Source of the DNA: a virus
Virus record (IMG/VR): IMGVR_UViG_3300005584_000003
Span: 1 to 59,958 of that record
Direction: 5' to 3' (one strand)
DNA length: 59,958 nt
Position numbers and translations under genes: made by a program. Shown piece by piece: positions 9,506-57,765 of the stretch (its first letter is position 1; the number at the start of each line of letters is the position of its first letter). The notes below the pieces were generated by a model. The model ran no database searches and was not told the DNA's origin. It was given only the letters and a program-made list of their open reading frames with translations.

Positions 9506-9556
9506 ATATCCGGGTATTTTAATGCGCTTGACAAGATAAAAATGTAACTGGAGGTA
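9506..9556. promoter_or_regulatory. Divergent promoter region sharing one -35 box
   Basis: CTTGACAAG (9527-9535) reads TTGACA rightward and TTGTCA leftward. Each is 36 bases from the assigned start codon (9564 rightward, 9498 leftward). The -10 hexamers at 17 bp are poor on both sides (GAGGTA; GGATAT), and the rightward gene has an SD-like GGAGG. The site is suggestive rather than proven. Confidence 0.4.
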
Positions 9557-9563
9557 TATTAAC

Positions 9564-10385
9564 GTGAAAGGAATCGATACAATGCCAAAGGGCCCCGTAA
9601 ATTGGGACTACAAATTTGATATTGTTTATTACACCGCGCCACTTGGTGGAAGATATCGAGCAATCATTGAAGACAGGTTAAAATCCGGGATCCCCGCAAG
9701 TATGGCTGGTGATGGACTACCGATTGCGTTCAGTACCGTCAGAACTATTGCAATGTTAATAAGGATTAACAGATCTCACGCAAAATACGAAAATTTTAGG
9801 ATTGGAGATAACTCTATGAACGCATATGACGTTGTAGAGCACTACTTAATAAACAATTTAAGCATGATGGACATTGGGAAGAAGGCTGGGTGCAGCGAAG
9901 GAAAGATAAAAAAGATCTTAATGGCTATGGGCGTTGAAAATCTGCGAGCTTATCGAAAAGGAAAACGCACAAAACGTCAGCAACGGGCTGATAAACCTAC
10001 AAATATGGAGGTTAATAAAAAATGGAAACCTCAGCGTAACGTTTTTTTAGCAAAATGGAGACAAAAGTACTGGCACAAATACGGAAAAGCATACGAAGAA
10101 GTAGCAAAGGGTGCGACAATAAAGCAAACATGCAAAAAACACGGAGTTGATATTAATTTAGCCTATTATCATTTTAAACGGTTACAGATAAATCAATTGG
10201 CCTATCTTGATTGGGGGCAAAAGAGGGCAATGCCTATCTATATTTCAAAGGCTAGGCTTAAACAATGGGAATACGTGGCAAAATTAAGTCACAATAGTGT
10301 GCTTGACTGGGCTCTGCATACGTTAAATGCTATAGCCGATAGGGAAGACAACATGAACGACTCCGTTAGAACCAACAACGCTTAA
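9564..10385 (+). CDS. Putative DNA-binding protein with helix-turn-helix segments
   Basis: A 273-residue basic protein. It has at least two helix-turn-helix-like stretches: MMDIGKKAGCSEGKIKKIL near residue 100-120 and ATIKQTCKKHGVDINLAYYHF near 190-210. A Lys/Arg-rich linker lies between them. It starts with GTG at 9564, preceded by GGAGG at 9 nt spacing, the clearest ribosome binding site in this half of the window. As first gene before the packaging genes it could be a regulator or a DNA-recognition subunit for packaging. No named family is recognised. Confidence 0.55.
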   Translation: MKGIDTMPKGPVNWDYKFDIVYYTAPLGGRYRAIIEDRLKSGIPASMAGDGLPIAFSTVRTIAMLIRINRSHAKYENFRIGDNSMNAYDVVEHYLINNLSMMDIGKKAGCSEGKIKKILMAMGVENLRAYRKGKRTKRQQRADKPTNMEVNKKWKPQRNVFLAKWRQKYWHKYGKAYEEVAKGATIKQTCKKHGVDINLAYYHFKRLQINQLAYLDWGQKRAMPIYISKARLKQWEYVAKLSHNSVLDWALHTLNAIADREDNMNDSVRTNNA

Positions 10386-10386
10386 C

Positions 10387-11085
10387 ATGCCAGAGATAAA
10401 CGACGATAACATACAGGATAATCCGCCAGACATGCCGGTTAGCCGCACGCAGCGCACGCCAGAACAGAAAGCCGTGCTTCATTCGCAGGCATTTGACATG
10501 TACATGAATGATCCCCGCCATCTTAATGCGGTACAGATCGCTAGGGAGCTTAAAATGGAGCCAGCGGCTCTGCTACGGTATGCCCAGAACAAGGGATGGG
10601 AGCAATTGCGCTTACAACAGCGGTCAATTATTAGCACGGTACAAAACGAACGTCGTCTTTCAACCGCAAAACGTGTAGATGAGCGTATTGTAGAGGCCGC
10701 TGATGAGGCAATTAAGGTCGCATCGGGCACATATTTGGACATTATTAACAAGATTGGCAACATGCCGTTAGATCCATTGTTAATTCCTGATGATGAACTT
10801 GATAAAGACGACCACGGTAACGTAAAAAGACGCCCAAAAAGAGCAAAATTACTAGAGGAAAAAGTGTTTTTATTAAATCAAGCTATGGATGGCTTTATGA
10901 AAATGTCATCTGGAGCCCAAGGCATAGGTCTTGTCTTAAACAACAAGGGCATTGACGGTAAAAGCACTAGCGATGACTTGCAAAAGCTAACGCAATTGAA
11001 TGTTTTGCTTCTAAATATTCAAAAGGGCAAAGGGGATTCGGCAATAAAAGCTGTAACCGAAATAACCGGTGAATTAATCGCATAA
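10387..11085 (+). CDS. terS: Putative small terminase subunit
   Basis: A 232-residue protein two genes before the large terminase. The N-terminus is disordered; near residues 45-75 a helix-turn-helix is seen (LNAVQIARELKMEPAALLRY, then QNKGWEQLR), as in small terminase subunits that recognise phage DNA. The middle is helical and could oligomerise; the C-terminus is variable. The position and the HTH support the call. The family is divergent, so the function is inferred. Confidence 0.5.
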   Translation: MPEINDDNIQDNPPDMPVSRTQRTPEQKAVLHSQAFDMYMNDPRHLNAVQIARELKMEPAALLRYAQNKGWEQLRLQQRSIISTVQNERRLSTAKRVDERIVEAADEAIKVASGTYLDIINKIGNMPLDPLLIPDDELDKDDHGNVKRRPKRAKLLEEKVFLLNQAMDGFMKMSSGAQGIGLVLNNKGIDGKSTSDDLQKLTQLNVLLLNIQKGKGDSAIKAVTEITGELIA

Positions 11086-11087
11086 CA

Positions 11088-11327
11088 ATGAGCAAACAAA
11101 ACATGAAAGTTATAATTAAAAAGCTATCTCGGCAACGGCGTTGGCAAAATAAACGACTTGCAGACGGTAAATGCGTCCGTTGCGGAGCATCAAGAACCCT
11201 CTATGCTCAACGTTGTGATGAATGTCAGGCAGAAGAAACCAAACGATCCCGAGAAAAGAATGGATGCGGTGAATGGAAGGCCGGTGGCCGTGGCAGAAAG
11301 CCAAAGTGCAACCAAATTGCCGCATGA
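11088..11327 (+). CDS. Small zinc-finger-like protein
   Basis: A 79-residue, very basic protein with CVRCG and CDEC (Cys-x2-Cys pairs near 27-30 and 44-47), which suggests a zinc-binding module. Its Lys/Arg-rich ends could bind nucleic acid. It sits between the putative small and large terminase genes and its stop overlaps the terminase start (ATGA). No named family is recognised. Confidence 0.55.
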   Translation: MSKQNMKVIIKKLSRQRRWQNKRLADGKCVRCGASRTLYAQRCDECQAEETKRSREKNGCGEWKAGGRGRKPKCNQIAA

Positions 11328-13309
11328 CGGGACCGGAAAAACATAGTTTGGTTCAGATAAACAGGAATTTAGAGTACGCTAAAGACCCGCATAGCCCTGA
11401 TCGGTTCAAATATCTTACCGATGCAATCTATGGCATTCTTGGGGATCCGGTTTTTGCCGATATTCTAAAGAAAAATGATAAACAAATACAATTAACGTCT
11501 GAATTGGATTTATACGGTATTGCTTTTACGTACTTGCGAATGTTTTTGATGCGTAGAGACTATGAATCAGCAGCAACTTTGCTTTGGGGAGAGGAGACAT
11601 TCACGTATGAGCCAAGATCGGTAAAAATGGTGTGGAATGGCATCATGAATAACCATTTACTCAATATTCTTGGGGCCGCATCAATGGGTAAAACCTATTC
11701 AGCGTCTGCATGGATGCTTTTAGATTGGGTTCTTGATCCCGATTGGACTTTGGTGCGGGTAATGTCTACAAAAGAAGAGCATGTTAAAAAGAATCTTTTT
11801 GGTGATATGCAACGTTTGTATCAAAACGCTGTTATTCCCCTTCCCGGTAAAGCCGATAGTGAATCTATTGCTACCGAACAAGGAAAACGCGGTGGTATGG
11901 GTATATTTATTTTAACTATTTCACGTGGTACAGAAGCAAGAGGCGCCATCAAGGGCGCTAAAATAAAACCAAGACCGGCGCATCCATTATTTGGAACGTC
12001 GTCAAGATCAAGATTGTTAATTGATGAAGCTCAGGAGGTTCCAGCGAATGCTTTTGAAGAAATACCCAATTTGTATTCGTCTATGGAAGAAGGTGATATA
12101 GAACACACCAAAATCGTAATGGCGGCTAATCCAAAAGACCCTTATTCAGAGTATGGAAAGAATTGTACTCCTGAAAAAGGATGGGAAGACATACAAACAA
12201 TTGATTCTGTCACCGATTTATGGACCAGTACGACTGGTTGGTCATGCGTAAGATTAAACGCAATGAAATCGGAGAATGTTATTAACAAACAAGACGTGTA
12301 TAAACGGTTTTTTACTTGGAATGGATTCAAGATGAAACTTCGTCAATACAACGGAGATCCCGATCACCCAATGATGTGGTCAGAAGTCTATGGCATGTTC
12401 CCGCCAAAGGGTAATAAATCGGCCATTATTCAAAAACACTGGGTTGATCGTAATTATGGTGAATGGATATTTGATGGACCAACTCAAACGATAGCAGCCC
12501 TTGATCCAGCGTACACGGGAGATATGCCAGCAATGGCTACGGGCAGGGCTGGACATGCTGTTGCATGGAGAACGTCCGATGGCGTAAGACATGACCTTAA
12601 ACTGTCGGGAATGAGGATACAAATAGACGCTGTTGGCATATTACCGCACGGCGACACTCAAGATCTTGCAGATGAAACAATGAGCCGGTTAAAAGAACTT
12701 GGGGTTGCCCCCGAAAACTTTGCTATTGATAGAACGGGTATTGGCCAAGGAACACACGACAATATACGTCGACAATGGCATCAAAAAGTCATGGGTGCGT
12801 CCCAGACAAGATCAACAGATTCGGTGTCTATTATGGGCATCAACTATGCTGAATCAGCTACGGAATTTACTATCTGCCAAGAAGATACAAAAACGCCCAA
12901 ACAATTATATGACGGTGTAAGGTCAGAAGTATGGTATGCAACCGGACGGTTTTTTGAGTACGATTACGTCAAAATAGGCGCCGGGGTTGATCTTGATAGC
13001 ATACAAGAGCTAGTAGATCGCAGGGGTGGCTCACCAGTAGGTAAAGGCAAATTGCTACAGGTCGAAAGCAAAGACAGTTATAAGTCGCGGGGTAACCACA
13101 GTCCCGACAGAGCAGATGCCGTAACCATGCTGGTGCAGTGCGCGCGTATAAGTGTTAGTATAAAGCCAATATCACCTGATTCTCCACCTGTGGAAGAGGC
13201 ACCAACCCTGTCAGAAATGTCAGGATCTTTTAGCATGAAAATGGGGGAACCAGTAAACCTTGGATTTAATTACAAGTTACCCGCAGAGCTTAATATTAAC
13301 AAAGACTAA
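11324..13309 (+). CDS. terL: Terminase large subunit
   Basis: A 661-residue packaging motor and headful/cos nuclease that drives DNA into the prohead through the portal. ATPase part: Walker A GAASMGKT (about 117-124) and Walker B LLIDEAQE (about 230-237), with a downstream coupling region AANPKDP. Nuclease part (RNase H fold): AALDPAYTG with Asp 394, DRTGIGQG near 470 and SPDRADAV near 595, giving the acidic triad. The start at 11324 overlaps the preceding stop (ATGA); the upstream in-frame start at 11273 is rejected because it lies inside that gene. A small-terminase candidate precedes it and head genes follow. Confidence 0.9.
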   Translation: MTGPEKHSLVQINRNLEYAKDPHSPDRFKYLTDAIYGILGDPVFADILKKNDKQIQLTSELDLYGIAFTYLRMFLMRRDYESAATLLWGEETFTYEPRSVKMVWNGIMNNHLLNILGAASMGKTYSASAWMLLDWVLDPDWTLVRVMSTKEEHVKKNLFGDMQRLYQNAVIPLPGKADSESIATEQGKRGGMGIFILTISRGTEARGAIKGAKIKPRPAHPLFGTSSRSRLLIDEAQEVPANAFEEIPNLYSSMEEGDIEHTKIVMAANPKDPYSEYGKNCTPEKGWEDIQTIDSVTDLWTSTTGWSCVRLNAMKSENVINKQDVYKRFFTWNGFKMKLRQYNGDPDHPMMWSEVYGMFPPKGNKSAIIQKHWVDRNYGEWIFDGPTQTIAALDPAYTGDMPAMATGRAGHAVAWRTSDGVRHDLKLSGMRIQIDAVGILPHGDTQDLADETMSRLKELGVAPENFAIDRTGIGQGTHDNIRRQWHQKVMGASQTRSTDSVSIMGINYAESATEFTICQEDTKTPKQLYDGVRSEVWYATGRFFEYDYVKIGAGVDLDSIQELVDRRGGSPVGKGKLLQVESKDSYKSRGNHSPDRADAVTMLVQCARISVSIKPISPDSPPVEEAPTLSEMSGSFSMKMGEPVNLGFNYKLPAELNINKD

Positions 13310-13311
13310 TT

Positions 13312-13905: not shown

Positions 13906-13909
13906 TAAT

Positions 13910-15076: not shown

Positions 15077-15312
15077 TTATTAAGTGGAAAAGTCCTATAA
15101 TTTTTTTGACCGCTTTATGGCGTGTTATTAAACAAAAATTCCACGGCAACATCGTTATTTTACCGCCCCATATGATCGATATTCGCCTTGAAGCCTGTTC
15201 AATGTGTTACCGCAATTACGACGGTCAATGCCTTGAGTGTGCGTGCTTCATTTCGATTAAAAGCTTGTTGAAAACAGAAAAGTGCCCTATCGGACGCTGG
15301 CCTGAGACATAA
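15073..15312 (+). CDS. Small Cys-rich protein
   Basis: A 79-residue protein starting at a GTG overlapping the upstream stop (GTGA). Upstream starts in the same frame lie inside the previous gene and are rejected. A short hydrophobic N-terminus is followed by a Cys cluster: CSMC, CLECAC and a later CPIGRW, six Cys in about 33 residues. This pattern of phage Cys-rich proteins suggests zinc or cluster binding. It precedes the portal gene by 21 nt. Confidence 0.55.
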   Translation: MIIKWKSPIIFLTALWRVIKQKFHGNIVILPPHMIDIRLEACSMCYRNYDGQCLECACFISIKSLLKTEKCPIGRWPET

Positions 15313-15326
15313 ATCTTTGGTATAGT
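15298..15326 (+). promoter_or_regulatory. Possible promoter for the portal gene
   Basis: TATAGT at 15321-15326 lies 7 nt before the portal ATG, matching the -10 position seen at other units, but the -35 position (15298) reads TGGCCT, a weak match. If used, the transcript would begin at the ATG. Confidence 0.35.
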
Positions 15327-15333
15327 AAGCAAT

Positions 15334-17805
15334 ATGGCATCCTACGCTCCCCAAGACTCCACAATCCCGCCGACAAAAAGTCCGCAGACCTCGGGGACCG
15401 TCACTATTGAGGCCCCGCCGCTTACGGGCGGCAATAACCCTAAGCTAGACTTAGAGGCACGTTCAATTAGGACTACCGATCAAGCGTGGAACCTATGTAA
15501 ATCGACAGAATCCGCCAATAAGACGCGTTCTCAACGGGCAACCGTAATGGAGTTGGAATACACGGGTCAGGCGCCATATTCACAGGCAGATCAAGTTGAA
15601 AAAGCCAATAGTTGGCAGTCTAACACTAATACTGGCATTTTATCGGGAATTGTTGATAGAAAGACACTTAGGTTTATTAATGCAATTACAACTCAAGTGT
15701 ATTTAAGCCGGTCATCTCTTCCAACTACATGGCCAGATTGGAAGAAAAAAAGCGATCAATTTTGTATTCATACTACCCGAATGATTCAAGGGTGGAAGAA
15801 GTACTCTACCTTTGTTCCTGCTTTGGCGCGTGAAAACGTGTTACATGGTTATGCGTATGGCATTTTTATGGATCCATATACGTGGACACCCCGCATGTTT
15901 AAACAGGATGTTGCGTATGTACCCGATGAAGCCTCTCAGTACGCAAACGAACTTCAGTTTTTTGTCATTAAACAAGACTTTCTTCTCCATGAATTCATCG
16001 ATATGTTTAAAGATGAAACTGCGGCAGAAGACATGGGGTATAACCTAAAGAATTGTATTGAGGCTGCCAATAAATCGGAGGTTAAGAACCCCCGTGAGGA
16101 CATGTTAACTACGGAATTCCGCAAATTTGCTGAATTTATTAGCGATGGTGTACTTGGTTTGACGTATTCTGTTAGCGGCCCACGCGTAGTTAAGACGTAT
16201 TTGTTGTGGAACCGGGAATATGACGGCAAGGTATCGTTTTGGATCCTACTTCGCGACAATGGTAAACTATTACGCTTTGCAGAGAAGATCTACAATAGTT
16301 TTGATGACGTTGTAACGCTATTTAGCTTCCAACCCGGCAATGGTCATTTGCATTCCTCTAAGGGCATTGGTCGCATGATCATTGGTAATGTTAAAATTGC
16401 CGAAAAGATCCGTAACAAGATGGTGGACAACATTAATATGTCCTCGCTTGTTATTTTAAAGGCCGACACTGCTAATAGAAACAAGCTACAACCTGTTGTA
16501 CATGCGCCATTTGTAGTTATTGATAAATCTATTGAGGTTGATCAACAGCGGTTTAGTGCAGACGGTGACATGTACGCCAATTTGGATCAACGGTTGGTAA
16601 ATTACATGGAGCAAACTGCTGGCGCGTATATTAGCGCCAATCCTAATGGCTTGGGTCAGCCGGTTACGGCTACGGAGGCCTCGCAGGACGCAAAACGCGA
16701 ACAAGAGAACTCCGATATTACCGAAACGCGTTGGCGCGATCAAATATCGCAGCTTGTTCAATCAATGCAAATGCGTGCATTCTCTGATGATAACGTCAGT
16801 GAGGCTAAACGTGTATTTACCGCTCTTACTAAAGAATTTGTAGGTCAAATTGATCAAACGGGCGCAGAAAACCCAGAAGATAAGCCAACGGTTAATAAAA
16901 CGCTCACCAAGTTGTTAGGTAACAACGACGAAGACAATCAGCCTATCCGGGTTCTTGTTAATATGTTTATTGACGGGTTAACGGAGCAAGAAATCAAACT
17001 CCTGCGTGATGCCCCCACTTCCGGTTATGCTCATACAGATGATGCCATTGTGGCGCAGGGCATTCTGGCGGTCGGTAAGATGTACGCCGGAAACCCCAAT
17101 CTGGACCAATCTGAGCTTACCCGTCGTGGTGTTGAGGCCTTGGCTGGCCCTGATGCCGCAAAGGCCCTTATTATCCCTAACGTTGACCAGACGATTACTG
17201 CTGAAGCTGGTCGTATGCAGCAGCAAGAGATTGTTACTATGATGAGTTTAATGCAGCCAGTTGCTGTATCTCCTCGCGATAATCATCTTATTCATGCTCA
17301 AGTTACTCAGGGCATGCTAGTTATTAATGGTCAGAAACTTAGCGACCTTAAAGAAGGCGAACGTTTTCTTAAGCCCACCGAGTTGTTGATCAATCATATG
17401 GCGGAACATTTGGCTCAATATTTGGCCCAAGGTAATCCTAGCCAAAACCCTGATTTCAAGAAACTTAACGATTTCTATAAACAATTTAAGGTGGATTTTG
17501 CCAAAGCAGTACAAATCCACGAAAAGAACAAGGCCATGAATCAAATGGCACAACAGGGTTATTCACCAGAAGCTATTGAGGCAATGTCTAACATGCAGGA
17601 AGATCTTCCCGGCGATATTGGTGGTGGCATTGGCGCCCCACCTAATTCTCCTGATCAAGGCATGAAACAAGGTGGACCTGACGTTGAAGCGGTACAAACT
17701 GCACTTGCTCGCGAAGCAGGGGAACTATCTCCCGATAAAATAGAAGAACGTCAAAAGCGTACATATACCCGTCAAATCACCCCGACTGAGCCAGCCGCAC
17801 AATGA
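15334..17805 (+). CDS. Portal protein
   Basis: An 823-residue protein after the terminase and before the scaffold, as expected for the portal, the dodecameric ring at the head vertex through which DNA is packaged and ejected. Features are an N-terminal Gly/Pro-rich arm, a long alpha/beta body including GIGRMIIGNVKIAEKI, TEASQDAKREQ near 445-460, and a helical region through 650-750 with a Gln/Pro/Gly-rich C-terminus. The size is that of podovirus-type portals. Assignment rests on gene order, size and overall pattern; no single invariant motif decides it. Confidence 0.65.
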   Translation: MASYAPQDSTIPPTKSPQTSGTVTIEAPPLTGGNNPKLDLEARSIRTTDQAWNLCKSTESANKTRSQRATVMELEYTGQAPYSQADQVEKANSWQSNTNTGILSGIVDRKTLRFINAITTQVYLSRSSLPTTWPDWKKKSDQFCIHTTRMIQGWKKYSTFVPALARENVLHGYAYGIFMDPYTWTPRMFKQDVAYVPDEASQYANELQFFVIKQDFLLHEFIDMFKDETAAEDMGYNLKNCIEAANKSEVKNPREDMLTTEFRKFAEFISDGVLGLTYSVSGPRVVKTYLLWNREYDGKVSFWILLRDNGKLLRFAEKIYNSFDDVVTLFSFQPGNGHLHSSKGIGRMIIGNVKIAEKIRNKMVDNINMSSLVILKADTANRNKLQPVVHAPFVVIDKSIEVDQQRFSADGDMYANLDQRLVNYMEQTAGAYISANPNGLGQPVTATEASQDAKREQENSDITETRWRDQISQLVQSMQMRAFSDDNVSEAKRVFTALTKEFVGQIDQTGAENPEDKPTVNKTLTKLLGNNDEDNQPIRVLVNMFIDGLTEQEIKLLRDAPTSGYAHTDDAIVAQGILAVGKMYAGNPNLDQSELTRRGVEALAGPDAAKALIIPNVDQTITAEAGRMQQQEIVTMMSLMQPVAVSPRDNHLIHAQVTQGMLVINGQKLSDLKEGERFLKPTELLINHMAEHLAQYLAQGNPSQNPDFKKLNDFYKQFKVDFAKAVQIHEKNKAMNQMAQQGYSPEAIEAMSNMQEDLPGDIGGGIGAPPNSPDQGMKQGGPDVEAVQTALAREAGELSPDKIEERQKRTYTRQITPTEPAAQ

Positions 17806-22810: not shown

Positions 22811-22839
22811 TTGCGCCAGCCTTAATTAATACGTATTAT
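22811..22839 (+). promoter_or_regulatory. Promoter giving a leaderless transcript
   Basis: TTGCGC-17-TATTAT, with 7 nt between the -10 hexamer and the ATG at 22847. The predicted transcription start is at or within one base of the ATG. Confidence 0.5.
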
Positions 22840-27116: not shown

Positions 27117-27144
27117 TTGCCCTAAAACCCTTCTAACTGATACC
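27117..27144 (+). promoter_or_regulatory. Possible leaderless-type promoter
   Basis: TTGCCC-16-GATACC; TTG is exactly 36 bases before the ATG at 27153. The -10 match is weak (3 of 6). Confidence 0.35.
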
Positions 27145-27152
27145 ATCCCCCC

Positions 27153-27860
27153 ATGCCCACATGTTGTACCCCCACTGGCTGCTGTAGCTCCGTCGATTCG
27201 ATGTGCGCTCCTCCCGTACCCGTAGCGACTGTCGTTGCTGGCCCAATGGGTCCGTCGGGTCCAGCAGGGCCAACCGGCCCACAGGGGTTGCGTGGCTTTA
27301 GCGGTGCAACAGGCGCTGGACAAACCGGCCCACAAGGTCCTATTGGCTTGCAGGGTGTTACCGGGATTACGGGAGCCACTGGCGTGGCTGGTACTAGTCC
27401 AATATTGGCACTATTTACCGGTTATCGCTGGAATCCCAATACGCCATATACTAACGCGCTTTTAGAATTAGCCGATCAAAGACTCATAAATATGGGAGCA
27501 ATCCCATTTGCAAGCGGAACTTATTTGTTCCATGTTGAAATGCAACTTGGGTGGACCGGTAACGGTACTGAAAGTCAAAATGGAGATGTTTGGCTGCAAA
27601 ATGGTCTTTATAATACTGTAGCTACATTCAAATGGGCTCGGCTTCGCCCGACAAGCGCGCTAACAAACGATAATTATGGAACGGTATCTAGTTATGGGCA
27701 TTGGGTTCAAGCCGGGGTAACACAATTTAATAATTTGATCCTAAACTCAGGGGATGATGTCTTTTTGCTAGGCGCTCAAATCACCGCTTACGCTGCTCCT
27801 GCCAATGTAATAATTTCGCCCGGATTTACCAATGGAAACAATGATGGAACTACGGTATAA
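27153..27860 (+). CDS. Cys-rich collagen-like protein with jelly-roll-like end
   Basis: A 235-residue protein. The N-terminus has six Cys in the first 25 residues ([18 protein letters not shown]), then a Gly-X-Y region (about 30-80), then a beta-rich C-terminal domain of about 150 residues ([40 protein letters not shown]), resembling C1q/TNF-like trimeric heads at the end of collagen stalks. The Cys cluster could cross-link the three chains or anchor the fibre. A similar Cys-rich start occurs in the fibre at 42975. Confidence 0.7.
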
Positions 27861-28293: not shown

Positions 28294-29277
28294 ATGCTGA
28301 CTCACGGGCAAGCCTCACTCGGTCCTCCGACGCTCGGTGAAATCATTACGGCTTCAAAGAGCCGCGATGTACTCGGCATTGATAATCGCGATGCCATCAT
28401 TGATTATATACAGCGAGCAATTGAACTGGCGACGTATCGCGCCCAATGGGATCCGTTATTGGGTACGATGGACATATGCAGCGATGAATGCGGTCTGGTT
28501 ACCCTTCCATCAGAAGTTGGTACTATTTTAGCATGTAACGTTGGTGGATTCCCGGCCCTATTTAGGAATTCATGGTTTCAATACCACATCAATGGTCCGG
28601 GCTCTGAACGTGGTCCCGGGGTTGGCGCCATGTGCGATTATACGTGGGACGATCAGGGTTTTAGTCCCGTCTTCCAGAACCTTAACGGATGGTCGTATGT
28701 TGCCGCATTTGTTGAAGATACCGACGACGGGCAAGGCAACTTGTCCCTTCAAGTGTACGGAGACACGATGGACAGCAACTATAACGAGAAGTTTGTTATG
28801 GTAAACGTCCCGTTATTAAATGGTTATGCGGCTACGGACCCTAACGCGACCCAATTTAAACGTATTACACGTGTAGTTAAGCCAGTAACAGCTGGGTACA
28901 TAAAGCTCATCGCATTCCCCGGTGTACAGCAGGCAAATGGCCGCACGCTTGGTTATTACGCCCCTAACGAGACACAACCACAGTATCGTCGCATTCGTGT
29001 TAACGCGGCCTGCAAATGGGTCAGGGTTAAGTATAGACGCAGTGAAATCAAACTCGTTTATGACACGGACCTTGTTCCATTCCCATCAAAGCAAGCTATG
29101 TTGTTCTTATTGAAGTCAATACGACTATTTGAAACGAATAACTTAGAAATTGCACAGGCTTACGAAAACAAAGCAATTCAGATTCTATTGGATATGGATT
29201 TTATTCAGAACGGCCCCGCAACCTTCAAATTACAGGTAGAACCCGGCTATGGACTTGGATGCATCGACTACCGCTAA
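28294..29277 (+). CDS. Putative neck/tail connector protein
   Basis: A 327-residue protein placed before the nozzle-like gene. The N-terminal helix region (GEIITASKSRDVLGIDNRD) and helical C-terminus (LFLLKSIRLFETNNLEIAQAYENKA) bracket a beta-rich middle. This matches podovirus head-to-tail connector proteins (gp11-like, a ring below the portal) in size and order. No invariant motif is visible, so the role is inferred from context. Confidence 0.5.
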   Translation: MLTHGQASLGPPTLGEIITASKSRDVLGIDNRDAIIDYIQRAIELATYRAQWDPLLGTMDICSDECGLVTLPSEVGTILACNVGGFPALFRNSWFQYHINGPGSERGPGVGAMCDYTWDDQGFSPVFQNLNGWSYVAAFVEDTDDGQGNLSLQVYGDTMDSNYNEKFVMVNVPLLNGYAATDPNATQFKRITRVVKPVTAGYIKLIAFPGVQQANGRTLGYYAPNETQPQYRRIRVNAACKWVRVKYRRSEIKLVYDTDLVPFPSKQAMLFLLKSIRLFETNNLEIAQAYENKAIQILLDMDFIQNGPATFKLQVEPGYGLGCIDYR

Positions 29278-29283
29278 TATAAT
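29255..29283 (+). promoter_or_regulatory. Promoter giving a leaderless transcript
   Basis: TTGGAT-17-TATAAT with a perfect -10, ending 6 nt before the ATG at 29290. The predicted start site falls on the A of the ATG. Confidence 0.55.
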
Positions 29284-29289: not shown

Positions 29290-31329
29290 ATGCAATCAGT
29301 CCCGCAAACACGCACGTTTAAGGACTTCATCGGGTTCACTGATGGGGTTGACAGCTATTTAGATCAGCAATACATCAAGGACACACAGGTTCGATGGGCT
29401 GAAAACGCCGTTAATAAGGGTGGTATTTGGCAAACTCGTCCGGGTTATGATTCTGTACTTAGTCTTGATTATGAAGCTGGGACTGAATTCTACACGTGGT
29501 GGCATGATCCAGCTGGCAATAACGAACAAGTTGTTTATCCGCAGTTCTTTACGATATTTGAGACAACGTCTGGCGATAATCAATTTATCTTTGGGGTGTC
29601 TGGTGCCGTATTCTATTGTTCGATTGATTCCAATGGAGGGATCCAGCCACCCCGATTAATTACTGCATTAAGATTTAGTCGTAATGCCGATCAAATAAAC
29701 ACGGCTGCTACGGTAAAGACATCTGACATACAATCTGGAATTATTGTAGTAACTCCGCCCCGTAATATTCTTATTATTCAAGACGGTGTATCTCGCGCTG
29801 GTTATTGGGACGGAACATCGGGCGGTCACTTAAATCCAACAAAACGTTGGGAAACGGACAGTCTTGGCAGCACGATTTATATCGATGGATATAATCAAAC
29901 ACGTATTGGCCAATACATGGCTTGGAGTAATAATCGGCTTTGGATATTTAGCGGTAAAGAAGGCTATGCTTCAGATCTTAATGATCCACTGCACTTTACA
30001 GAAGAAACTGTATTGGTTAACGTTCCAAGCTTTACTTTTCCTGATGACGTAACCGGCGCCATTGATCGTGGAACTTCAGGTGTTTTAGAAAACATGCTGT
30101 TTGTGGGAACTAAAGGCGGTATTTTTACTTTGTGGTCAGGCGTAACAGACCGAACACAATGGAGATACACAGTTGATTTTAAAAGAAAAGTATTCTCCGG
30201 TTTATCATGCGTATCTCATAAATCAATGATCGCCCATATGGGCCTATTGTACTGGTATTCCGATAGCGGCATTGTATCTCTTGATTCTCTTGGCACGCAG
30301 ACCATAACGCAGGCGTTGCCGCCTATTGATAGCGAAATGGTCTATTCCAAGAACAAGATGTCGGGTGATCGTTCTAGGATTTGTGCCGGTAAATTTGACT
30401 CCTATATATGGTGGTCGGTTCCCGTTGCCGTAAACGGTCCAGAATCTAATTACCCTTCTATGTATCACGGGAGGGTCTATAATGGTCATACTCAAGTGTT
30501 AGATCGCATTGTTACCCCAGTGCCATTTACGTATGCTCAGCCAAGTGCTTACAGCGTAACGGCGTGGCAAGGGGTATGGACGGGTCTTCGTCCTGTTGAA
30601 TGGGCTACAAATGAGATTAATGGCGTAATACGAACATACTGCTTATCTCTTGATTATGATGGTGTTATGCGCATTTGGGAAGGTTTCAACGGTAATCGTG
30701 CTGATAACGGCAACCCAATTACGTGGGCTATTGAAACAAAAGCTCATGCTGTTACCGATTCGCCATTTTCTAAATCTATATTTAGGCATTTTCGTATACT
30801 AATTACACAACTTTACGGCAATTTGAGCGTTGAAGGTTATTGGAAGGGTTTACGCGGTCAATATCATCAATTGATGGATACATCGGTATCAGCGACTCCG
30901 GGATCTATTCTTCTCAATAATCCAGATTATTTCCCACTTAAAAATAATACAGTATCGACGAGTTTTACCAAACAAGTTCGCGATCTTCTATCCAAGGATA
31001 ATAGAGATCCAGAGGCATGCACGTCCGCTAACGTAGAAAGTAAATATCAAGACGACATTGATACCGCCTTTAGCTTATACTTCACTTTTACTGGTGTAGG
31101 CGCCTTAAAGGCCTACCGTCTTGCAACGGACATTAACCCCGACAATACGGAGGGCGAAGTTCTTGCGGCGGAAACCGGTCAGCGCATTCTACCAGAAGAA
31201 GGATGTCCTGAATTTGTTGCTGGTAATCTCCCCGCATATACCCTAGTAAAACGCCCAGCAAAGGATGCCCTCTCGCCCACCGTAAATACCTTCACAGAGA
31301 CAGGATACCAACTTCCCTTGTCACAATAA
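29290..31329 (+). CDS. Putative tail nozzle / beta-propeller protein
   Basis: A 679-residue protein. The early segment AVNKGGIWQTRPGYDSV resembles the RGG-QTRPG start of podovirus nozzle proteins (T7 gp12-like), which form the distal tail tube. Beta-propeller-like blades follow with Trp/Tyr-rich strands (WSNNRLWIFSG, LYWYSDSGIVSL, SYIWWSVPV). It sits just downstream of the connector-like gene, the usual order. The C-terminus is less structured. It has a leaderless-type promoter. Confidence 0.6.
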   Translation: MQSVPQTRTFKDFIGFTDGVDSYLDQQYIKDTQVRWAENAVNKGGIWQTRPGYDSVLSLDYEAGTEFYTWWHDPAGNNEQVVYPQFFTIFETTSGDNQFIFGVSGAVFYCSIDSNGGIQPPRLITALRFSRNADQINTAATVKTSDIQSGIIVVTPPRNILIIQDGVSRAGYWDGTSGGHLNPTKRWETDSLGSTIYIDGYNQTRIGQYMAWSNNRLWIFSGKEGYASDLNDPLHFTEETVLVNVPSFTFPDDVTGAIDRGTSGVLENMLFVGTKGGIFTLWSGVTDRTQWRYTVDFKRKVFSGLSCVSHKSMIAHMGLLYWYSDSGIVSLDSLGTQTITQALPPIDSEMVYSKNKMSGDRSRICAGKFDSYIWWSVPVAVNGPESNYPSMYHGRVYNGHTQVLDRIVTPVPFTYAQPSAYSVTAWQGVWTGLRPVEWATNEINGVIRTYCLSLDYDGVMRIWEGFNGNRADNGNPITWAIETKAHAVTDSPFSKSIFRHFRILITQLYGNLSVEGYWKGLRGQYHQLMDTSVSATPGSILLNNPDYFPLKNNTVSTSFTKQVRDLLSKDNRDPEACTSANVESKYQDDIDTAFSLYFTFTGVGALKAYRLATDINPDNTEGEVLAAETGQRILPEEGCPEFVAGNLPAYTLVKRPAKDALSPTVNTFTETGYQLPLSQ

Positions 31330-31346
31330 CCCTTTACTGATAAACT
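31318..31346 (+). promoter_or_regulatory. Promoter giving a leaderless transcript
   Basis: TTGTCA-17-TAAACT with 7 nt to the ATG at 31354. The -35 matches 5 of 6 consensus bases and overlaps the 3' end of the nozzle gene. Confidence 0.55.
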
Positions 31347-39126: not shown

Positions 39127-39330
39127 TTACTGGATCTTGCTTGAGCTGAATCGACCCTTGATATAAGTGGCTAGGAATCGCCCCTTACTACCGGAAGCCA
39201 TGAAGTCATCGTAAACGTTAGCCGGGACACCGAAATATTGATAGGCGCTGGTGTTATTAAACACGACCACCATGGTAAAGGTCTTTTCGTCGTAGTTGAC
39301 TTCTGAAATATTTGATGAGTTAACTTTCAT
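39127..39330 (-). CDS. KTSC-domain protein
   Basis: A 67-residue protein that is essentially one KTSC domain: MKVNSSNISEVNYDE, MVVVFNNTSAYQYFGVP, VYDDFMASGSKGRF and YIKGRF. KTSC proteins are small and often phage-encoded, with unclear function. The start at 39330 (not 39345) fits the family start and puts a TTGCTG-17-CCTAAT promoter 6 nt upstream. It is the only leftward gene in this stretch and abuts the FkbM stop. A divergent copy of the domain is in the large virion protein at 35351. Confidence 0.8.
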   Translation of the reverse strand: MKVNSSNISEVNYDEKTFTMVVVFNNTSAYQYFGVPANVYDDFMASGSKGRFLATYIKGRFSSSKIQ

Positions 39331-39332: not shown

Positions 39333-39361
39333 TTGTATTAGGCATGACAACGACTTATACA
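39333..39361 (+). promoter_or_regulatory. Possible promoter for the methyltransferase/GT4 pair
   Basis: TTGTAT-17-TATACA, predicted start about 39368, five nt before the ATG at 39373. It overlaps the leftward promoter at 39337-39365. Confidence 0.4.
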
Positions 39362-39365
39362 GCAA
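39337..39365 (-). promoter_or_regulatory. Leaderless-type promoter for the KTSC gene
   Basis: On the minus strand TTGCTG-17-CCTAAT, with 6 nt to the ATG at 39330. Confidence 0.4.
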
Positions 39366-41145: not shown

Positions 41146-42408
41146 TTAGGCATTAAGGCCAGATACGCCCGAGCAAGAAGCAAGGGTGTCATCAGCCAAG
41201 CAACGCTTGTAGACGATAGGCAGAACGAACCAAGGATAGATCGGGCGGAACGCACGACCAATTTGGAACGCCAGAACTCCGTAGTTACGGAAGAAGTTCT
41301 GCACCATGTCAGGATAGGCACCGAAGATAACTTCGCCACCGAACATCTGTTGAGCCCATTTAACGCGACCTTCGCCAACGTACTTGGCAGGAACCTGACG
41401 CTCGAAAGACTGACGAGCGAACAAGAAGCCAACTTCGTGAGAAGCGACCAGCCAACCGGGATTAACGACTTCAATGGTGCCAGTGGTGCCAGCGACGGAC
41501 GCATAAGGCTCCACAGCAACATAGGTCGAACCATTCCAGTTGTAACGGAGGGGACGTTGATCCTCACCGAAGTCAATACCACGGAACATCGGTTTGAAGA
41601 TGTAACCCGTCATGCCTTTCTTGGCTTCTGAGTCGCCAGAAATTGCATTAACTGCAAGAGGACCAACTGGGTAGGTAACATAAGCACCCGGGCCAGCCGC
41701 CCCACCTAAGTCCTGACGCATTGACTCAAGGATGTCAGCGGAACCGATAAAGCGCACGTGTGCGCCTTCGCCTTCGCCGAACTTCCAAGCAAGAAGATCT
41801 TGCGTGAGAAAACGAGCATAATGATGCAACAGTTCAAACGACAGACGCGTATCCGAATGGGTATTCGGCAGCGCGACATCGATCTGCTGTTGACCACCGG
41901 AGATGGTGGAGTAGAAGTTAACACCGCTCTGCACGATGGCCTTCACACCAGAACGGGTGAAGATTTCAGCGCGCGTATCAGCGTTAATCAGCTCGGTCGA
42001 GTACTGTTGCACCGAATTCAACTGAGTCGTAAGGGACTCCTTGAACGCGTTATAAGCAACATTCAGCGCGATCACATCAGAGAAATCCTGATAGATCTTA
42101 GCAGAATACTGATAGCTTGAGGTGCCTGATTTGCTGTTACCAGCATTAGGCCCAATATTGGTAACGTTACCCATCGTGGTGAACGTTGGGAACGTCATCG
42201 ACGTACCGGGGACCGTGCGGCCCTGAATAGTCGAAACGTGAACTGGGGAAACCTGAGCTTCAAAGGTCTTTTGAGAAAGAACAGAGAGATAAGGTACATT
42301 GGCAGCAAGTGCGGCACCAATCGGCGCAATGATGCGCGAAGGGTCGCTTGCGAAGATCTGAACCGCTGTGGGTAGATCGATGAATGCAGCTGTGGGAGTA
42401 ATAGGCAT
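41146..42408 (-). CDS. Major capsid protein
   Basis: A 420-residue protein with the expected size and a balanced, Cys-poor composition except near the end. It has a helical N-terminal arm, a spine-like helix region (AYNAFKESLTTQLNSVQQY, STELINADTRAEIF, about 120-150), and a late region typical of HK97-fold capsid proteins (YPDMVQNFFRNYGVLAFQIG, then FRPIYPWFVLPIVY). No other protein in the window is a better candidate. It is leftward, about 22 kb from portal and scaffold, with its own promoter, a leader of about 145 nt and a terminator. Assignment is by size and overall pattern. Confidence 0.65.
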   Translation of the reverse strand: MPITPTAAFIDLPTAVQIFASDPSRIIAPIGAALAANVPYLSVLSQKTFEAQVSPVHVSTIQGRTVPGTSMTFPTFTTMGNVTNIGPNAGNSKSGTSSYQYSAKIYQDFSDVIALNVAYNAFKESLTTQLNSVQQYSTELINADTRAEIFTRSGVKAIVQSGVNFYSTISGGQQQIDVALPNTHSDTRLSFELLHHYARFLTQDLLAWKFGEGEGAHVRFIGSADILESMRQDLGGAAGPGAYVTYPVGPLAVNAISGDSEAKKGMTGYIFKPMFRGIDFGEDQRPLRYNWNGSTYVAVEPYASVAGTTGTIEVVNPGWLVASHEVGFLFARQSFERQVPAKYVGEGRVKWAQQMFGGEVIFGAYPDMVQNFFRNYGVLAFQIGRAFRPIYPWFVLPIVYKRCLADDTLASCSGVSGLNA

Positions 42409-42556
42409 GGGAATCTAGTTTAGTTGTTGTACGCGTGGATAAGCAGCCACTACTTCTGCCGCTCGGTGGGTAGTTCCAAGCGCGCTAGACCCGTTTGCTC
42501 ACAGCGGGTATGCCTTGCGGCGAGCCGACCTAACGGTTAGACCCCTGATGATCAGA
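42409..42556 (-). promoter_or_regulatory. Structured leader of the capsid mRNA
   Basis: About 145 nt between the predicted start site and the ATG. In the RNA sense it holds a near-palindrome CTAACCGTTAG (42540-42530), a GCC-GCAA-GGC hairpin with a GNRA-type loop (42521-42512) and an ACCCG/CGGGT stem (42509-42489). No known riboswitch was recognised. Most other units here have no leader, so this one stands out. Confidence 0.4.
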
Positions 42557-42585
42557 CAGTAACATTAATATTATGTACTTGTCAA
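42557..42585 (-). promoter_or_regulatory. Capsid-gene promoter
   Basis: On the minus strand TTGACA (perfect -35) -17- TTACTG, similar to the TTACCT -10 at 57213. The -35 overlaps a rightward TTGTCA box. Confidence 0.5.
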
Positions 42586-42619: not shown

Positions 42620-42946
42620 ATGAATAATGAGTTTTATACCTCCCCGGAAAGAAAATGTAGATTTTCTATTGATTATGTTACCCCCGGGGCACAAGGGCTG
42701 GCGTGGGCGATCCTATTAAAAGCCGTTGAGGATGGGTGTTCTAAGGAGTGGTTAGTCGCTATTGTTCAATATTATGGAATTGATTTTGATGAAAAATTAT
42801 TTGAACGCCTCCCTATGAATAAAATTAAAATGATGAATAAAAATCACGAAATGATTGGCATTCAATTTTCCGCCCCCAAGGAAAAGGAATGTTTGTTAAG
42901 TATGCACGACGGTCTTCATATCAGAGGCTTACTGGACCTTGCCTGA
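42620..42946 (+). CDS. Hypothetical protein, 108 residues
   Basis: A protein beginning [19 protein letters not shown] with a helical middle ([27 protein letters not shown]) and a beta-rich end. No family is recognised. It lies between the capsid promoter region and the S74 collagen fibre; the fibre's -35 box lies in its last codons. A fibre-associated role is possible from position only. Confidence 0.5.
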
Positions 42947-42967
42947 TGATGGGGCTTTTGTTAATCT
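42939..42967 (+). promoter_or_regulatory. Leaderless-type promoter for the S74 fibre
   Basis: TTGCCT-17-TAATCT with 7 nt to the ATG at 42975. The TTG could be mistaken for a start codon in frame; the promoter geometry argues that ATG 42975 is the start. Confidence 0.45.
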
Positions 42968-47835: not shown

Positions 47836-49395
47836 ATGAAAACTCTAAACGATAAAGATTTTAATTTTGTTGTTGTTGGTGGTGGCGTGGCTGGATGGTT
47901 TGCAGCCCTTACCCTGCAAAAATCATATCCCGGAACAACAATTACCGTTGTTGAGAGTTCTAAGATTGGTTCAGTTGGTGTCGGGGAAAGCACAACCCCG
48001 CAGATCATTCAACTTTTTGATGAGCTTGGTATTTCTGTTTCCGACCTATTGAAACATACGAATGCTACCATCAAGAATGGCATTAAGTTTACTAACTGGC
48101 ATGGGGACGGTAAACACTTCTTTCATGGATTTGGCTCGATCCCAGAGTTAAGCTACGAGCATTCAACTCTATTGAATCATTGTGATGTGCCACTCCTTGC
48201 CCTGCAAGCAATTGCTTCTGGCAATTCTTTAGATGAGGTTGAGCTTTCCGCAATTGCATCAGAAAAGAATCAATTAAAATTCATCAAAAATGGAAGCATT
48301 GATTCAAACTCGAATAAGATATTTCACTTCAAAAACCTTGGAAACTTTGCTGTTCATTTTGATGCGGATCAAATGATCAAATACCTGAGAAGCATTGGGG
48401 TTGATAGGGGAATCAACACTGTTGATGCCATTGTTTTGGGGGCCGAAGAAAACAGCGAAGGTTATATAAAGAAAATACTTTTGAAAGGTGGATCAATGAA
48501 ATGCGATTTTGTAATAGACGCATCTGGCTTTAGTCGTCTTTTGATCGGCAAGCACTTTAATGGTTTTTGGAAGAGCTACCGCGCCCATCTTCCAATTAAA
48601 CGAGCTATTCCTTTCCATCTTCCCATCGATGCTGAAAAGATCCCGCCTTATACGGAAGCGGTTGCAATGAAGTATGGGTGGATGTGGAAGATTCCGGTTC
48701 AGGATCGATTTGGGTGTGGTTACACATTTGATTCGGACTATATCTCCGATGAAGAAGCCCATAGTGAAATCGAGGAAGCAGTAGGGCAGAAAGTAGACGT
48801 TCGTAAGATCCTTGATTTTGATGGCGGCGCCTACACTCGCCCTTGGGTAAAAAACTGTATGGCCATTGGTCTTGCATCGGCCTTTATTGAGCCACTTGAA
48901 TCAACGGCTATTTGGATCGGCATACAAACGATGAAGAGCTTCCTAGCGAACATAAAAGGACTTACGCATTGTTCTCAGGCTCATATAGATCAACATAACA
49001 GCCGAGTTAATGTTATGGCCGATGAAGTTCTTACATTCGTACATCTTCACTATTTAACTGAAAGAAGTGACACTAAGTTTTGGCGTGATTTTAAGGTAAA
49101 TAACAGCCCACCCGAAATGATCTGTCGATTAAATGATGCCAATCGTGATATAACTCTTTTTTCGGATATTATGACTGGGTTCACTAATTCATTTACATTT
49201 GGCAGTTGGCAACACGTTGGCGCCGGGGTTCGTTTCTTCAATAAAGAACACGCAACTGCATCTTTGGAATCTTTTGTACTCGGAAATAGAATAAATCAGT
49301 ATCGCTATAAGTATGATTCACTTACAATGAACCTCAACTTTGTGAGAAATTCAATGGTTCATCACAGCGACTTCATTAAATACCTTAAATCTTAA
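47836..49395 (+). CDS. Flavin-dependent tryptophan-type halogenase
   Basis: A 519-residue FAD enzyme of the PrnA/RebH family, which uses reduced flavin, oxygen and halide to make hypohalous acid that halogenates an aromatic substrate. Visible: VVGGGVAGW (GxGxxG, about 14-21), VGVGESTTP, TIKNGIKF with Lys80 at the position of the catalytic Lys79, KYGWMWKIP (GWxWxIP hallmark, 281-287), and FIEPLESTAI with Glu355-Ser356 at the catalytic Glu/Ser position. All catalytic residues are present. No flavin reductase is seen, so the host would supply FADH2. The ATG at 47836 is preferred over a TTG at 47812. Cyanophages carry homologues, including a characterised viral halogenase. The substrate here is unknown. 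Confidence 0.9.
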   Translation: MKTLNDKDFNFVVVGGGVAGWFAALTLQKSYPGTTITVVESSKIGSVGVGESTTPQIIQLFDELGISVSDLLKHTNATIKNGIKFTNWHGDGKHFFHGFGSIPELSYEHSTLLNHCDVPLLALQAIASGNSLDEVELSAIASEKNQLKFIKNGSIDSNSNKIFHFKNLGNFAVHFDADQMIKYLRSIGVDRGINTVDAIVLGAEENSEGYIKKILLKGGSMKCDFVIDASGFSRLLIGKHFNGFWKSYRAHLPIKRAIPFHLPIDAEKIPPYTEAVAMKYGWMWKIPVQDRFGCGYTFDSDYISDEEAHSEIEEAVGQKVDVRKILDFDGGAYTRPWVKNCMAIGLASAFIEPLESTAIWIGIQTMKSFLANIKGLTHCSQAHIDQHNSRVNVMADEVLTFVHLHYLTERSDTKFWRDFKVNNSPPEMICRLNDANRDITLFSDIMTGFTNSFTFGSWQHVGAGVRFFNKEHATASLESFVLGNRINQYRYKYDSLTMNLNFVRNSMVHHSDFIKYLKS

Positions 49396-51307: not shown

Positions 51308-51311
51308 CTGG

Positions 51312-55598: not shown

Positions 55599-55621
55599 GT
55601 TAATCCTTTTTTTGTTAATTA

Positions 55622-56440: not shown

Positions 56441-56444
56441 TGGA

Positions 56445-57029
56445 TTATCCCAACACTGGTGGATTAACCGACAAGCCCTTACGATTAGCCTCAATGAAAA
56501 TGCAGGACACACACGACTGGAACTGATCGTCCGTCATCTTATGGTCATGCAACGTAATCAAGATCTCGCGAATATTGATCGCATGCCGTGTGGCGTGCAG
56601 ATACATTAACTGGATCTTACCCATACCATCATTGAAGCTTTCAGGCGCAGGCGCCTTATATGGCGAAGGAGAGTGCGGCATATGCTTACCGGCCTCTGGC
56701 TCGGCAGCGTCACCGAACGTGGTCAGGTTGGTCTTCTCACCAGCCGTCATCTGAGCTTTGCCCTTATAGTCAGTGCGCTTCATGCCAGCACCACTAAAAT
56801 TGACGACCTTGCCATCATACGGGCAGGGGTTCTTACCAAAGAATGAACACTCAATGCTGAGTGATGCATCATCCGGGTCTACAAGGACTCCTTTGCCGGG
56901 TTTACGGCCCTCTGGTGGGCGAGTTTGCGTTACGATAGCCTTGAAGGATCCATCGATCCAAACTGGCGTTTCTTCGGTACTAGCTGAGAGTGCTAGCACT
57001 CCTGCGATATTGGTTGTTTTATTGCTCAT
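56445..57029 (-). CDS. Putative single-strand DNA-binding protein
   Basis: A 194-residue protein. The first ~100 residues have beta-strand character (IDGSFKAIVTQTRPPEGRKPGKGVLVD, SLSIECSFFGKNPCPYDGKVVNFSG) consistent with an OB fold. A Pro/Ala linker follows, then a helical C-terminus with Cys/His (SCVSCIFIEANRKG). Position between a nuclease and a ribbon-helix-helix gene in a replication operon supports DNA binding. No named family was certain. The start at 57029 (MSNKTTNI) is used. Confidence 0.45.
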   Translation of the reverse strand: MSNKTTNIAGVLALSASTEETPVWIDGSFKAIVTQTRPPEGRKPGKGVLVDPDDASLSIECSFFGKNPCPYDGKVVNFSGAGMKRTDYKGKAQMTAGEKTNLTTFGDAAEPEAGKHMPHSPSPYKAPAPESFNDGMGKIQLMYLHATRHAINIREILITLHDHKMTDDQFQSCVSCIFIEANRKGLSVNPPVLG

Positions 57030-57037
57030 GGTTAAAA

Positions 57038-57205
57038 TTAACAAGACTGATTGACGAGTTGATCGATAACATTCCCGAGGCGTTTTTTACCAACGGGAAG
57101 AAGCGAGGCCTTTTTGTTTAAATATAAAAAAGACCCTGCCGAAATTGATACGCTAATTGCTACGCGTAGTTTTTTGCCCTGACGGGGGCGACCTAATTTA
57201 ATCAT
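57038..57205 (-). CDS. Ribbon-helix-helix-like protein
   Basis: A 55-residue basic protein below usual length cut-offs. It reads KLGRPRQGKKLRVAISVSI (strand and basic arm), then SFLYLNKKASLLPVG and RLGNVIDQLVNQ (two helices), the layout of ribbon-helix-helix DNA-binding proteins. A perfect TTGACA lies 36 nt before the ATG with TTACCT as -10 and 7 nt to the ATG, so the start is well supported. Its stop is 8 nt before the SSB-like gene. It may autoregulate the operon. Confidence 0.6.
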   Translation of the reverse strand: MIKLGRPRQGKKLRVAISVSISAGSFLYLNKKASLLPVGKKRLGNVIDQLVNQSC

Positions 57206-57212
57206 TTCTTAG

Positions 57213-57241
57213 AGGTAATTATTTTTCTGTAGTTATGTCAA
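57213..57241 (-). promoter_or_regulatory. Leaderless-type promoter
   Basis: On the minus strand TTGACA-17-TTACCT, 7 nt before the ATG at 57205. The -35 is perfect. Confidence 0.5.
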
Positions 57242-57248
57242 CGGAATA

Positions 57249-57506
57249 TTATGTCTGCAACAAATCGATGAAGCAGGGTGTGCCTTCACCGACGTATGCA
57301 CCCTTCTGATTAAACTCAAAATATTCCTCGGCCTCTTCCTCGGTCATATCGCGCATGAGTTGTTTGATAACTAACGCACGGTCATAGCACACAACGGGCT
57401 CCTCTAAGCCGCATCCTTCGACAACGCCTAGAATGCAGTCATTAAATCCGTCCATTGTTATGAGATCATCTCCATAACGCTCTAGCAGATCATCTATTTT
57501 AGCCAT
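57249..57506 (-). CDS. Small conserved phage protein
   Basis: An 85-residue acidic protein: MAKIDDLLERYGDD, DGFNDCILGV, VCYDRALVIKQLM and EEAEEYFEFNQKGAYVGEGTPCFI. This combination of G-F-D-D-C-I, YDRxxVIxxLM and FEFN-xx-GA-VGEGTPCF recurs widely in phages. Function is unknown. The start at 57506 is used; it follows the previous stop by 1 nt (TAACATG). Confidence 0.6.
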   Translation of the reverse strand: MAKIDDLLERYGDDLITMDGFNDCILGVVEGCGLEEPVVCYDRALVIKQLMRDMTEEEAEEYFEFNQKGAYVGEGTPCFIDLLQT

Positions 57507-57507
57507 G

Positions 57508-57729
57508 TTAGTTGTTTCCCGATGGCTTTGGCTCACTGCCCTCTTCGGCCCACTCAGAAATAGCTTTAATAGCAGCCATGGCAGCTACAGCAGCGTGCCC
57601 CGGGTATGATTTACCCGTAGGCTGCATAGGAAAGAAATCGGTGTTAACCTTGAGGGAGCTACCGTTTTCGCAAATAATGGTTATAACCGCTTTAGTTACT
57701 TCACCGTCTTGTGGATGTTCGTTTTTCAT
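57508..57729 (-). CDS. Small hypothetical protein, first of the replication operon
   Basis: A 73-residue protein (begins MKNEHPQDGEVT) with two strands (KAVITIICENGSSLKV) and a helix (HAAVAAMAAIKAISEWAEE). The ATG at 57729 is chosen because TTGACT-17-TTATCT ends 7 nt before it. An upstream TTG frame (57765) coincides with that -35 box. No family is recognised. Confidence 0.55.
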   Translation of the reverse strand: MKNEHPQDGEVTKAVITIICENGSSLKVNTDFFPMQPTGKSYPGHAAVAAMAAIKAISEWAEEGSEPKPSGNN

Positions 57730-57736
57730 CAAGCGC

Positions 57737-57765
57737 AGATAATTAATGTTTAATAATTGAGTCAA
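57737..57765 (-). promoter_or_regulatory. Leaderless-type promoter for the leftward operon
   Basis: On the minus strand TTGACT-17-TTATCT, 7 nt before the ATG at 57729. The -35 overlaps a rightward TTGAGT box (TTGAGTCAA, 57757-57765). Confidence 0.5.

Follow-up and report, generated by a model that had tools for sequence, protein, structure and literature searches.

The 59,958-base virus record analysed here (the window, by which we mean this whole stretch of DNA) raises the question of whether a phage can attach its promoters directly to its start codons, such that the messenger RNAs (mRNAs) would begin at the AUG. A preliminary description of the window had proposed this for many genes, in which a TTG box starts 35 or 36 bases before the ATG and a -10-like hexamer ends 6-7 bases before it. 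The shared promoter geometry is confirmed by our analysis, and six promoters, named here by the position of the start codon that they precede, keep it in diverged lineages of the phage; two other sites proposed at the time, before 29290 and 57205 (minus strand), are not conserved. Judged from their sequence, these six core promoters are quite probably fused to start codons and would give leaderless or nearly leaderless mRNAs.

The boxes are enriched at gene starts. Curation by a simple coding score and homology gave 67 starts in the window, one of which had a wrong codon and was removed, leaving 66. Under a fixed rule (TTG beginning at -36/-35 and T[AT]nnnT ending 6-7 nucleotides (nt) before the start), both boxes are present at seven of these (22847, 27153, 29290, 31354, 42975, 57205 minus and 57729 minus) compared with 4 of 981 internal ATGs (Fisher P = 8e-7), the comparison that had been suggested as a check. 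When all starts were shifted by 5-30 nt either way, the mean fell to 0.40 sites and the maximum was 3. TTG alone occurs at 11/66 starts versus 5.0% of internal ATGs (P = 8e-4). All seven sites belong to the 35 starts whose distance to the next gene is 10 nt or more; the 31 closer starts have none. Two of the seven starts had first been called automatically at 27201 and 42939 and were reset to 27153 and 42975 by homology, after the finding had been read; the count without both is 5/64.

The seven sites that had been called clear do carry their boxes at the positions described. The grading into strong and weak cases held in part: 39330 minus (CCTAAT), called clear, fails the fixed rule, and 27153, called weak, passes it. 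The absence of a Shine-Dalgarno sequence, also offered as an argument, has to be dropped. Correctly set core starts indeed have none, but strict Shine-Dalgarno cores are rare at other genes too (12 of 200 other start rows, compared with one of 28 core rows, where the start is mis-set), so that their lack does not discriminate. Sequence upstream of other gene starts in the family is A-rich and G-poor.

Relatives were collected by using four window proteins (the primase, a virion protein, the portal-like and the capsid-like protein) as queries against viral contigs. They form four further lineages with 66-70% nucleotide identity to the window (W) and to each other, where alignable: A (G001, G005, G013, G014 and short contigs), B (G002, G004, G006, G015), C (G003) and D (G008 and short contigs). 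One further record, G007, is distant (primase identity 35%). The firmest cases are 27153, 31354 and 42975, at which TTGCC-N17/18-TGnTAnnnT-N5-7-ATG is common to all five lineages (Table 1). The genes behind the six promoters encode the portal-like protein (15334), three fibre/collagen-like proteins (22847, 27153, 42975), an unassigned protein encoded among virion genes (31354) and a KTSC-domain protein (39330 minus).

Table 1. Promoter boxes and other features in the window, with their forms in the window (W) and lineages A to D.
Feature	Position	Strand	Remarks
-35 box TTGCCC of 27153	27117..27122	+	TTG at -36, intergenic; TTGCCC in W, A, B, C; TTGCTC in D
Extended -10 TGATACCAT of 27153	27138..27146	+	ends 6 nt before ATG; same in W, A, B, C; TGCTAAACT in D
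-35 box TTGTCA of 31354	31318..31323	+	relatives TTGCCC, TTGCGT, TTGCCC, TTGCCT
Extended -10 TGATAAACT of 31354	31338..31346	+	ends 7 nt before ATG; TGATAAAnT in W, A, B, D; TGGTACACT in C
-35 box TTGCCT of 42975	42939..42944	+	TTGCCT/TTGCCA in five lineages
Extended -10 TGTTAATCT of 42975	42959..42967	+	ends 7 nt before ATG; TGnTAnnnT in five lineages
-35 box TTGCGC of 22847	22811..22816	+	intergenic; TTGCG in 5/5 lineages
-10 TATTAT of 22847	22834..22839	+	ends 7 nt before ATG, without TGn; TAT(T/C)AT in five lineages
CTGGCC at the -35 place of 15334	15297..15302	+	TTGGCC in A, B, C; within final codons of upstream gene
Extended -10 TGGTATAGT of 15334 (portal-like)	15318..15326	+	ends 7 nt before ATG; TG(A/G)TATA(G/T)T in five lineages
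-35 box TTGCTG of 39330 minus	39360..39365	-	TTG at -37 to -34 in 5/5 lineages
-10-like CCTAAT within TGCCTAAT of 39330 minus	39337..39342	-	ends 6 nt before ATG
TTGGAT/TATAAT before 29290	29255..29283	+	geometry right, window only
TTGACA/TTACCT before 57205 minus	57213..57241	-	geometry right, boxes not conserved
TTGACT/TTATCT before 57729 minus	57737..57765	-	geometry right
Promoter TTGACA-N18-(TGT)TACTGT of the capsid-like gene	42556..42585	-	TTGACAAG in five lineages, 173-185 nt upstream of ATG
Conserved 5' leader (~140 nt) of capsid-like gene 41146-42408 minus	42409..42547	-	probably structured

The settings of these boxes vary. In the window, the -35 boxes of 31354 and 42975 each fall within the closing codons of the preceding gene. 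The frame that stays open longest across the 31354 box, a candidate upstream gene, ends variously by lineage (-24, -25, -23, -18 and beyond). In lineage A, the orthology of 42975 is judged by its place, some 580 bases away from the start of the capsid-like gene, which matches the window. At 15334, described earlier as having a -10 only, the extended -10 is kept in its own form in five lineages and lies past the stop of the upstream gene (at -21 in W, A, B and C and at -24 in D). The -35 box of 39330 minus takes the forms TTGCTG, TTGCCA and TTGCCT, and TTGAAC in A, and shares sequence with the region upstream of 39373, which is divergent; its -10-like element is TGC(C/T)TA-like in five lineages, a weak match. 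The gene itself (39127-39330) encodes a small protein and diverges from 39373.

Over the 30 sites given by six promoters in five lineages, with the register set by score, the consensus is T30 T28 G30 C25 C19 C16, followed by T26 G25 n T26 A23 n n n T27. The TGn of the extended -10 thus has its T in 26/30 and its G in 25/30 sites, 22847 being without it. The -10 elements are TA-led, with TAnnnT at -13/-12 in 22847, 27153, 31354, 42975 and 15334, and CCTAAT at 39330 minus. Pairwise identity between lineages (60 pairs) is 0.80 in the -35 box and 0.76 in the extended -10, both inflated by registers picked by matrix score, and 0.42 in the spacer, 0.46 in the gap and 0.43 upstream. A register-free count agrees: among 39 genes represented in at least four lineages, TTG is found at -37 to -34 in at least three lineages for seven (five core genes, 9564 and 13312), and in none or one for the other 32. 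A matrix trained on W and A and tested on B, C and D gave 11 hits above 14 bits, registers of one site being counted apart, and 10 of them lie 6-7 nt before an ATG. By comparison, a generic sigma70 matrix gave 26 hits, two of which lie 6-7 nt before an ATG with an open reading frame (ORF): window 31354 and the G002 ortholog of 9564.

The same distance emerges when gene calling is left aside. In one genome per lineage, on both strands, all box pairs were located and the offset of the downstream ATG recorded. Of 467 TTG..TAnnnT sites, 20 have the ATG at 6 nt and 19 have it at 7 nt, 39 together where 17.8 are expected from the mean of 8.9 per other offset. For TTGC..TAnnnT (112 sites) the numbers at 6 nt, at 7 nt and per other offset are 13, 8 and 2.2, and for TTGC..TGnTAnnnT (19 sites) they are 11, 2 and 0.27. 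The 13 start-fused sites of this last form are 27153 in five lineages and 31354 and 42975 in four each, that is, three promoters kept across lineages and not 13 independent events. TGnTAnnnT alone shows a weak, broad excess (44 vs 29, P = 0.006). Even the distant G007 has 9 of its 64 TTG..TAnnnT sites at 6-7 nt, where 1.8 are expected. That the boxes are chance coincidences among many upstream regions is hardly credible in view of these offsets, the enrichment over internal ATGs and shifted positions, and the conservation across lineages; it is already contradicted for 27153, 31354 and 42975, although chance is probably the truth for the unconserved 29290 and 57205 minus.

Several points nevertheless weigh against start-fused promoters, beyond the inflated identities and the non-independence just mentioned. 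The TTGC/TGn form was picked after seeing the relatives, and the P-values ignore common ancestry; promoters 27153 and 42975, moreover, precede similar fibre genes and may themselves share ancestry. TAnnnT alone has no peak in the five lineages (P = 0.22), nor does TTGAC..TAnnnT (1 of 21 sites). Three of four control patterns are flat, and the fourth, GTT..TAnnnT, exceeds its background of 8.5 at both 5 nt (17) and 6 nt (16), in partial overlap with the signal since 10 of these 33 sites begin GTTG. The -35 place of 15334 was rejected as clean evidence because it holds a Trp codon of the upstream gene, and its conservation may be that of coding sequence only. When each promoter was left out of the matrix in turn, a threshold of 11.5 bits recovered 27153 in 5/5 lineages, 31354 in 4/5, 42975 in 2/5, 15334 in 1/5, and 22847 and 39330 minus in 0/5, and the scans brought 41-67 new hits, just 2-8 of which are 5-7 nt before an ATG. 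There is consequently one tight group of three or four promoters, and the others are conserved only in their own form. Finally, a leader of 1-3 nt may also be compatible with the evidence.

How could such promoters work? In the main form, a -35-like TTGCC at about -36/-35 is followed by a spacer of 17-18 base pairs (bp) and by TGnTAnnnT ending 5-7 nt before the ATG, with 22847, 39330 minus and 15334 as variants. Given a -10 that ends 5-7 nt before the ATG, standard promoter spacing would put +1 at or beside the A. A pyrimidine stands at -1 in 28/28 core rows compared with 119/200 other rows, which fits a pyrimidine-purine start. Transcription would then begin at the start codon, or one or two nucleotides from it: the polymerase of the host, carrying the housekeeping sigma factor and possibly altered by a phage factor, would start at the A of the ATG, and the 5'-terminal AUG would be the loading site of the ribosomes. 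We infer from the sequence that the boxes act as promoters, and likewise the exact 5' ends and the mode of translation; late timing of the six genes is suggested by their functions. A host polymerase, perhaps modified, is the likely reader of these promoters. Some of the records searched being fragments, Sigma70_r2 matched in none of 12 (the control matched in 10/14) and Sigma70_r4 in none of 12 over the cut-off, with two below it; PF00940, the single-subunit RNA polymerase, matched in none of 12, and its control likewise matched nowhere, so that such a polymerase may yet be encoded.

Alternatively, the boxes could be sigma70-type promoters of the ordinary kind that give leaders of no more than about 2-6 nt, with compact genomes and not leaderless translation behind the tight distance. 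We regard this as unlikely. A neighbour on the plus strand, 39373, may be of such a short-leader type, having by eye TTGTAT-N17-TATACA that ends 11 nt before the ATG, but its TTG doubles as the complement of conserved sequence beside the 39330 minus start. Against this alternative, every lineage keeps the core gap at 5-7 nt despite the divergence of spacer and flank, and the invariable pyrimidine at -1 is what a start at the A would lead one to expect. A second alternative, that the boxes are a phage-regulator binding site or a processing signal at a fixed distance and not promoters, is in our opinion very improbable. It could draw on a -35-like box that reads TTGCC and not TTGACA, on the deviation of 22847 and 39330 minus from the shared form, and on two core sites that sit between divergent genes. 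A spacing of 17-18 bp together with TGnTAnnnT is, however, standard promoter geometry, and both boxes are missing where a start has less than 10 nt of room. Start-fused promoters thus remain the reading that we prefer.

The capsid-like gene (41146-42408 minus, so designated from its position, size and sequence) offers a contrast, as its conserved promoter lies far upstream. RNAalifold, applied to six distinct sequences of the intervening leader, proposed 33 pairs, three of which extend into the promoter and cannot exist in the RNA. The structure, derived from the same six sequences, has 95.4% of cells able to pair compared with 26-44% for slid versions, and 9 pairs change on both sides versus a shuffled mean of 5.8; further pair types are not above shuffles (20 vs 20.4). 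Rfam gave no match on the strand of the leader, and the motif was found in 7 viral contigs, all records of this phage family. The leader is a candidate new cis-acting RNA and is flagged here as a candidate new RNA structure. A long-leader capsid-like gene beside start-fused promoters indicates that leaderless and long-leader genes seem to coexist; putatively leaderless fibre genes and this gene in one genome would form a natural set in which to ask why a phage picks either mode. The conserved box at 42580-42585 has two readings: it is the TTGACA of the capsid-like gene and, on the side of the divergent 42620, a TTGTCA at -40. As clean evidence for a promoter of 42620 (plus), TTGTCA was rejected, being the TTGACA of the capsid-like gene on the opposite strand.

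The arrangement is also found beyond this family. A viral collection was scanned for the exact pattern TTGCCC-N14-TGATAnnnT-N6-ATG and, as control, for the same pattern with the ATG at +12; at least 120 loci match the former and 38 in all the latter. Among the 120 matches listed, 71 belong to a second group (L246, L248, L250 and L251 among them), seven to the window's family, one (L219) has only DUF932 in common with it, and 41 are others, so that no excess is claimed outside these groups. The second group is low in guanine and cytosine (median 38%) and carries CTTGCCCCTTTA...T.TAAATGATAGAAT-N6-ATG, its ATG at +6 being partly by construction since the group was selected by the pattern; the consensus is also present at 2 of 36 control loci. 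The proteins behind this promoter show 24 different N-terminal hexapeptides, some of them clearly related, and the base at -1 is a pyrimidine in 66 of the 71 loci among the matches listed. ORFs after the ATG have a median of 66 amino acids in the test set compared with 14 in 36 of the 38 control loci, two that were also in the test set being excluded. There is one strict site per locus, and no clear peak is seen among the 51 non-seed sites of these loci (3 at +6 and 2 at +7). A comparison of the second-group loci with the window proteins matched L183 alone (DUF932, 27%), and half of the six proteins tried from one second-group locus were without a name.

The two groups have the same two boxes at the same distance to the ATG. 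It is tempting, if still rather speculative, to suggest that start-fused TTGCC..TGATAnnnT is shared by at least two dissimilar groups of environmental phages and is read by one host sigma factor or a phage-modified polymerase, with leaderless fibre and portal genes and a structured leader on the capsid-like gene. If true, there would be two translation modes within one infection.

Leaderless phage mRNAs, extended -10 promoters and TANNNT near -12 are already known. The middle and late mRNAs of the Thermus thermophilus phage phiYS40 are mostly leaderless (PMC3594737), and the middle and late promoters of the T. thermophilus phage P23-45 are of the extended -10 class (PMC7403470). The window family likewise has the extended -10 (TGn). 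Unlike that class, which by our reading has no conserved -35, it keeps a -35-like box (0.80 identity, register by score). Its resemblance to phiYS40 is one of description only, its leaderlessness being predicted from sequence. In bacteria, TANNNT about 12 bp upstream of the start serves as the -10 of leaderless genes (PMC3160421), such genes are widespread in Actinobacteria and Deinococcus-Thermus (PMC3160421, PMC12340547), and in Deinococcus radiodurans TANNNT lies 6-7 bp upstream of ORFs (PMC12340547). Compared with these TA-led genes as so described, the phage consensus adds TTGCC and TGn, and does so before a few genes only. Our literature search, which covered titles and the openings of abstracts among the papers listed, yielded no description of leaderless promoters in uncultured phages. 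Relative to that search, a TTGCC consensus with putatively start-codon-fused spacing, conserved in a phage family poor in Shine-Dalgarno sequences, appears to be new. Treating the promoter-ATG distance as part of the signal could provide a route to leaderless genes and corrected starts in uncultured phages without RNA data.

Not all of the sites first listed are promoters of this kind, a generalization rejected on the evidence of 29290 and 57205 minus. The former has no boxes in A, C and D, the three lineages with a usable start, and the latter none in A, B and C. The 55-residue gene behind the latter (57038-57205 minus), which a length cut-off was said to hide, is real, as it is encoded by nine relative records in three lineages. 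No ortholog of the 57729 minus gene was found among the relatives. At 9564 all five lineages retain a TTGAC-like -35, but B alone has a -10 placed six nt ahead of the ATG; in the window, GGAGGT occupies the -10 place.

A search of named phages with 24 kb of window DNA gave no nucleotide match. The window encodes a primase/helicase, an exonuclease, a Holliday junction resolvase, tail-fibre and collagen-like proteins, GroEL and a tryptophan halogenase. The terminase-like protein (11324-13309) matched one record, the terminase of Streptomyces phage Marky (21% identity). The product of 15334-17805 is called portal-like on account of its place, size and sequence; searches of PHROGs, Pfam and phage records gave it no name, nor did Pfam or the PDB name the capsid-like protein, which had no relative in genome contigs in a host search. 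The GroEL gene (6925-8529 minus) had no match in the ORFs of 14 relative records, some of them fragments. It is 47-55% identical to bacterial GroELs (best 80 of 103 relatives), and among 258 GroEL-bearing phage records all but one (257) fall below 60% identity to it. The tryptophan-halogenase-like gene (47836-49395), also without a match in 14 relative records (some fragments), has its best phage match in Pelagibacter phage HTVC008M, at 38%.

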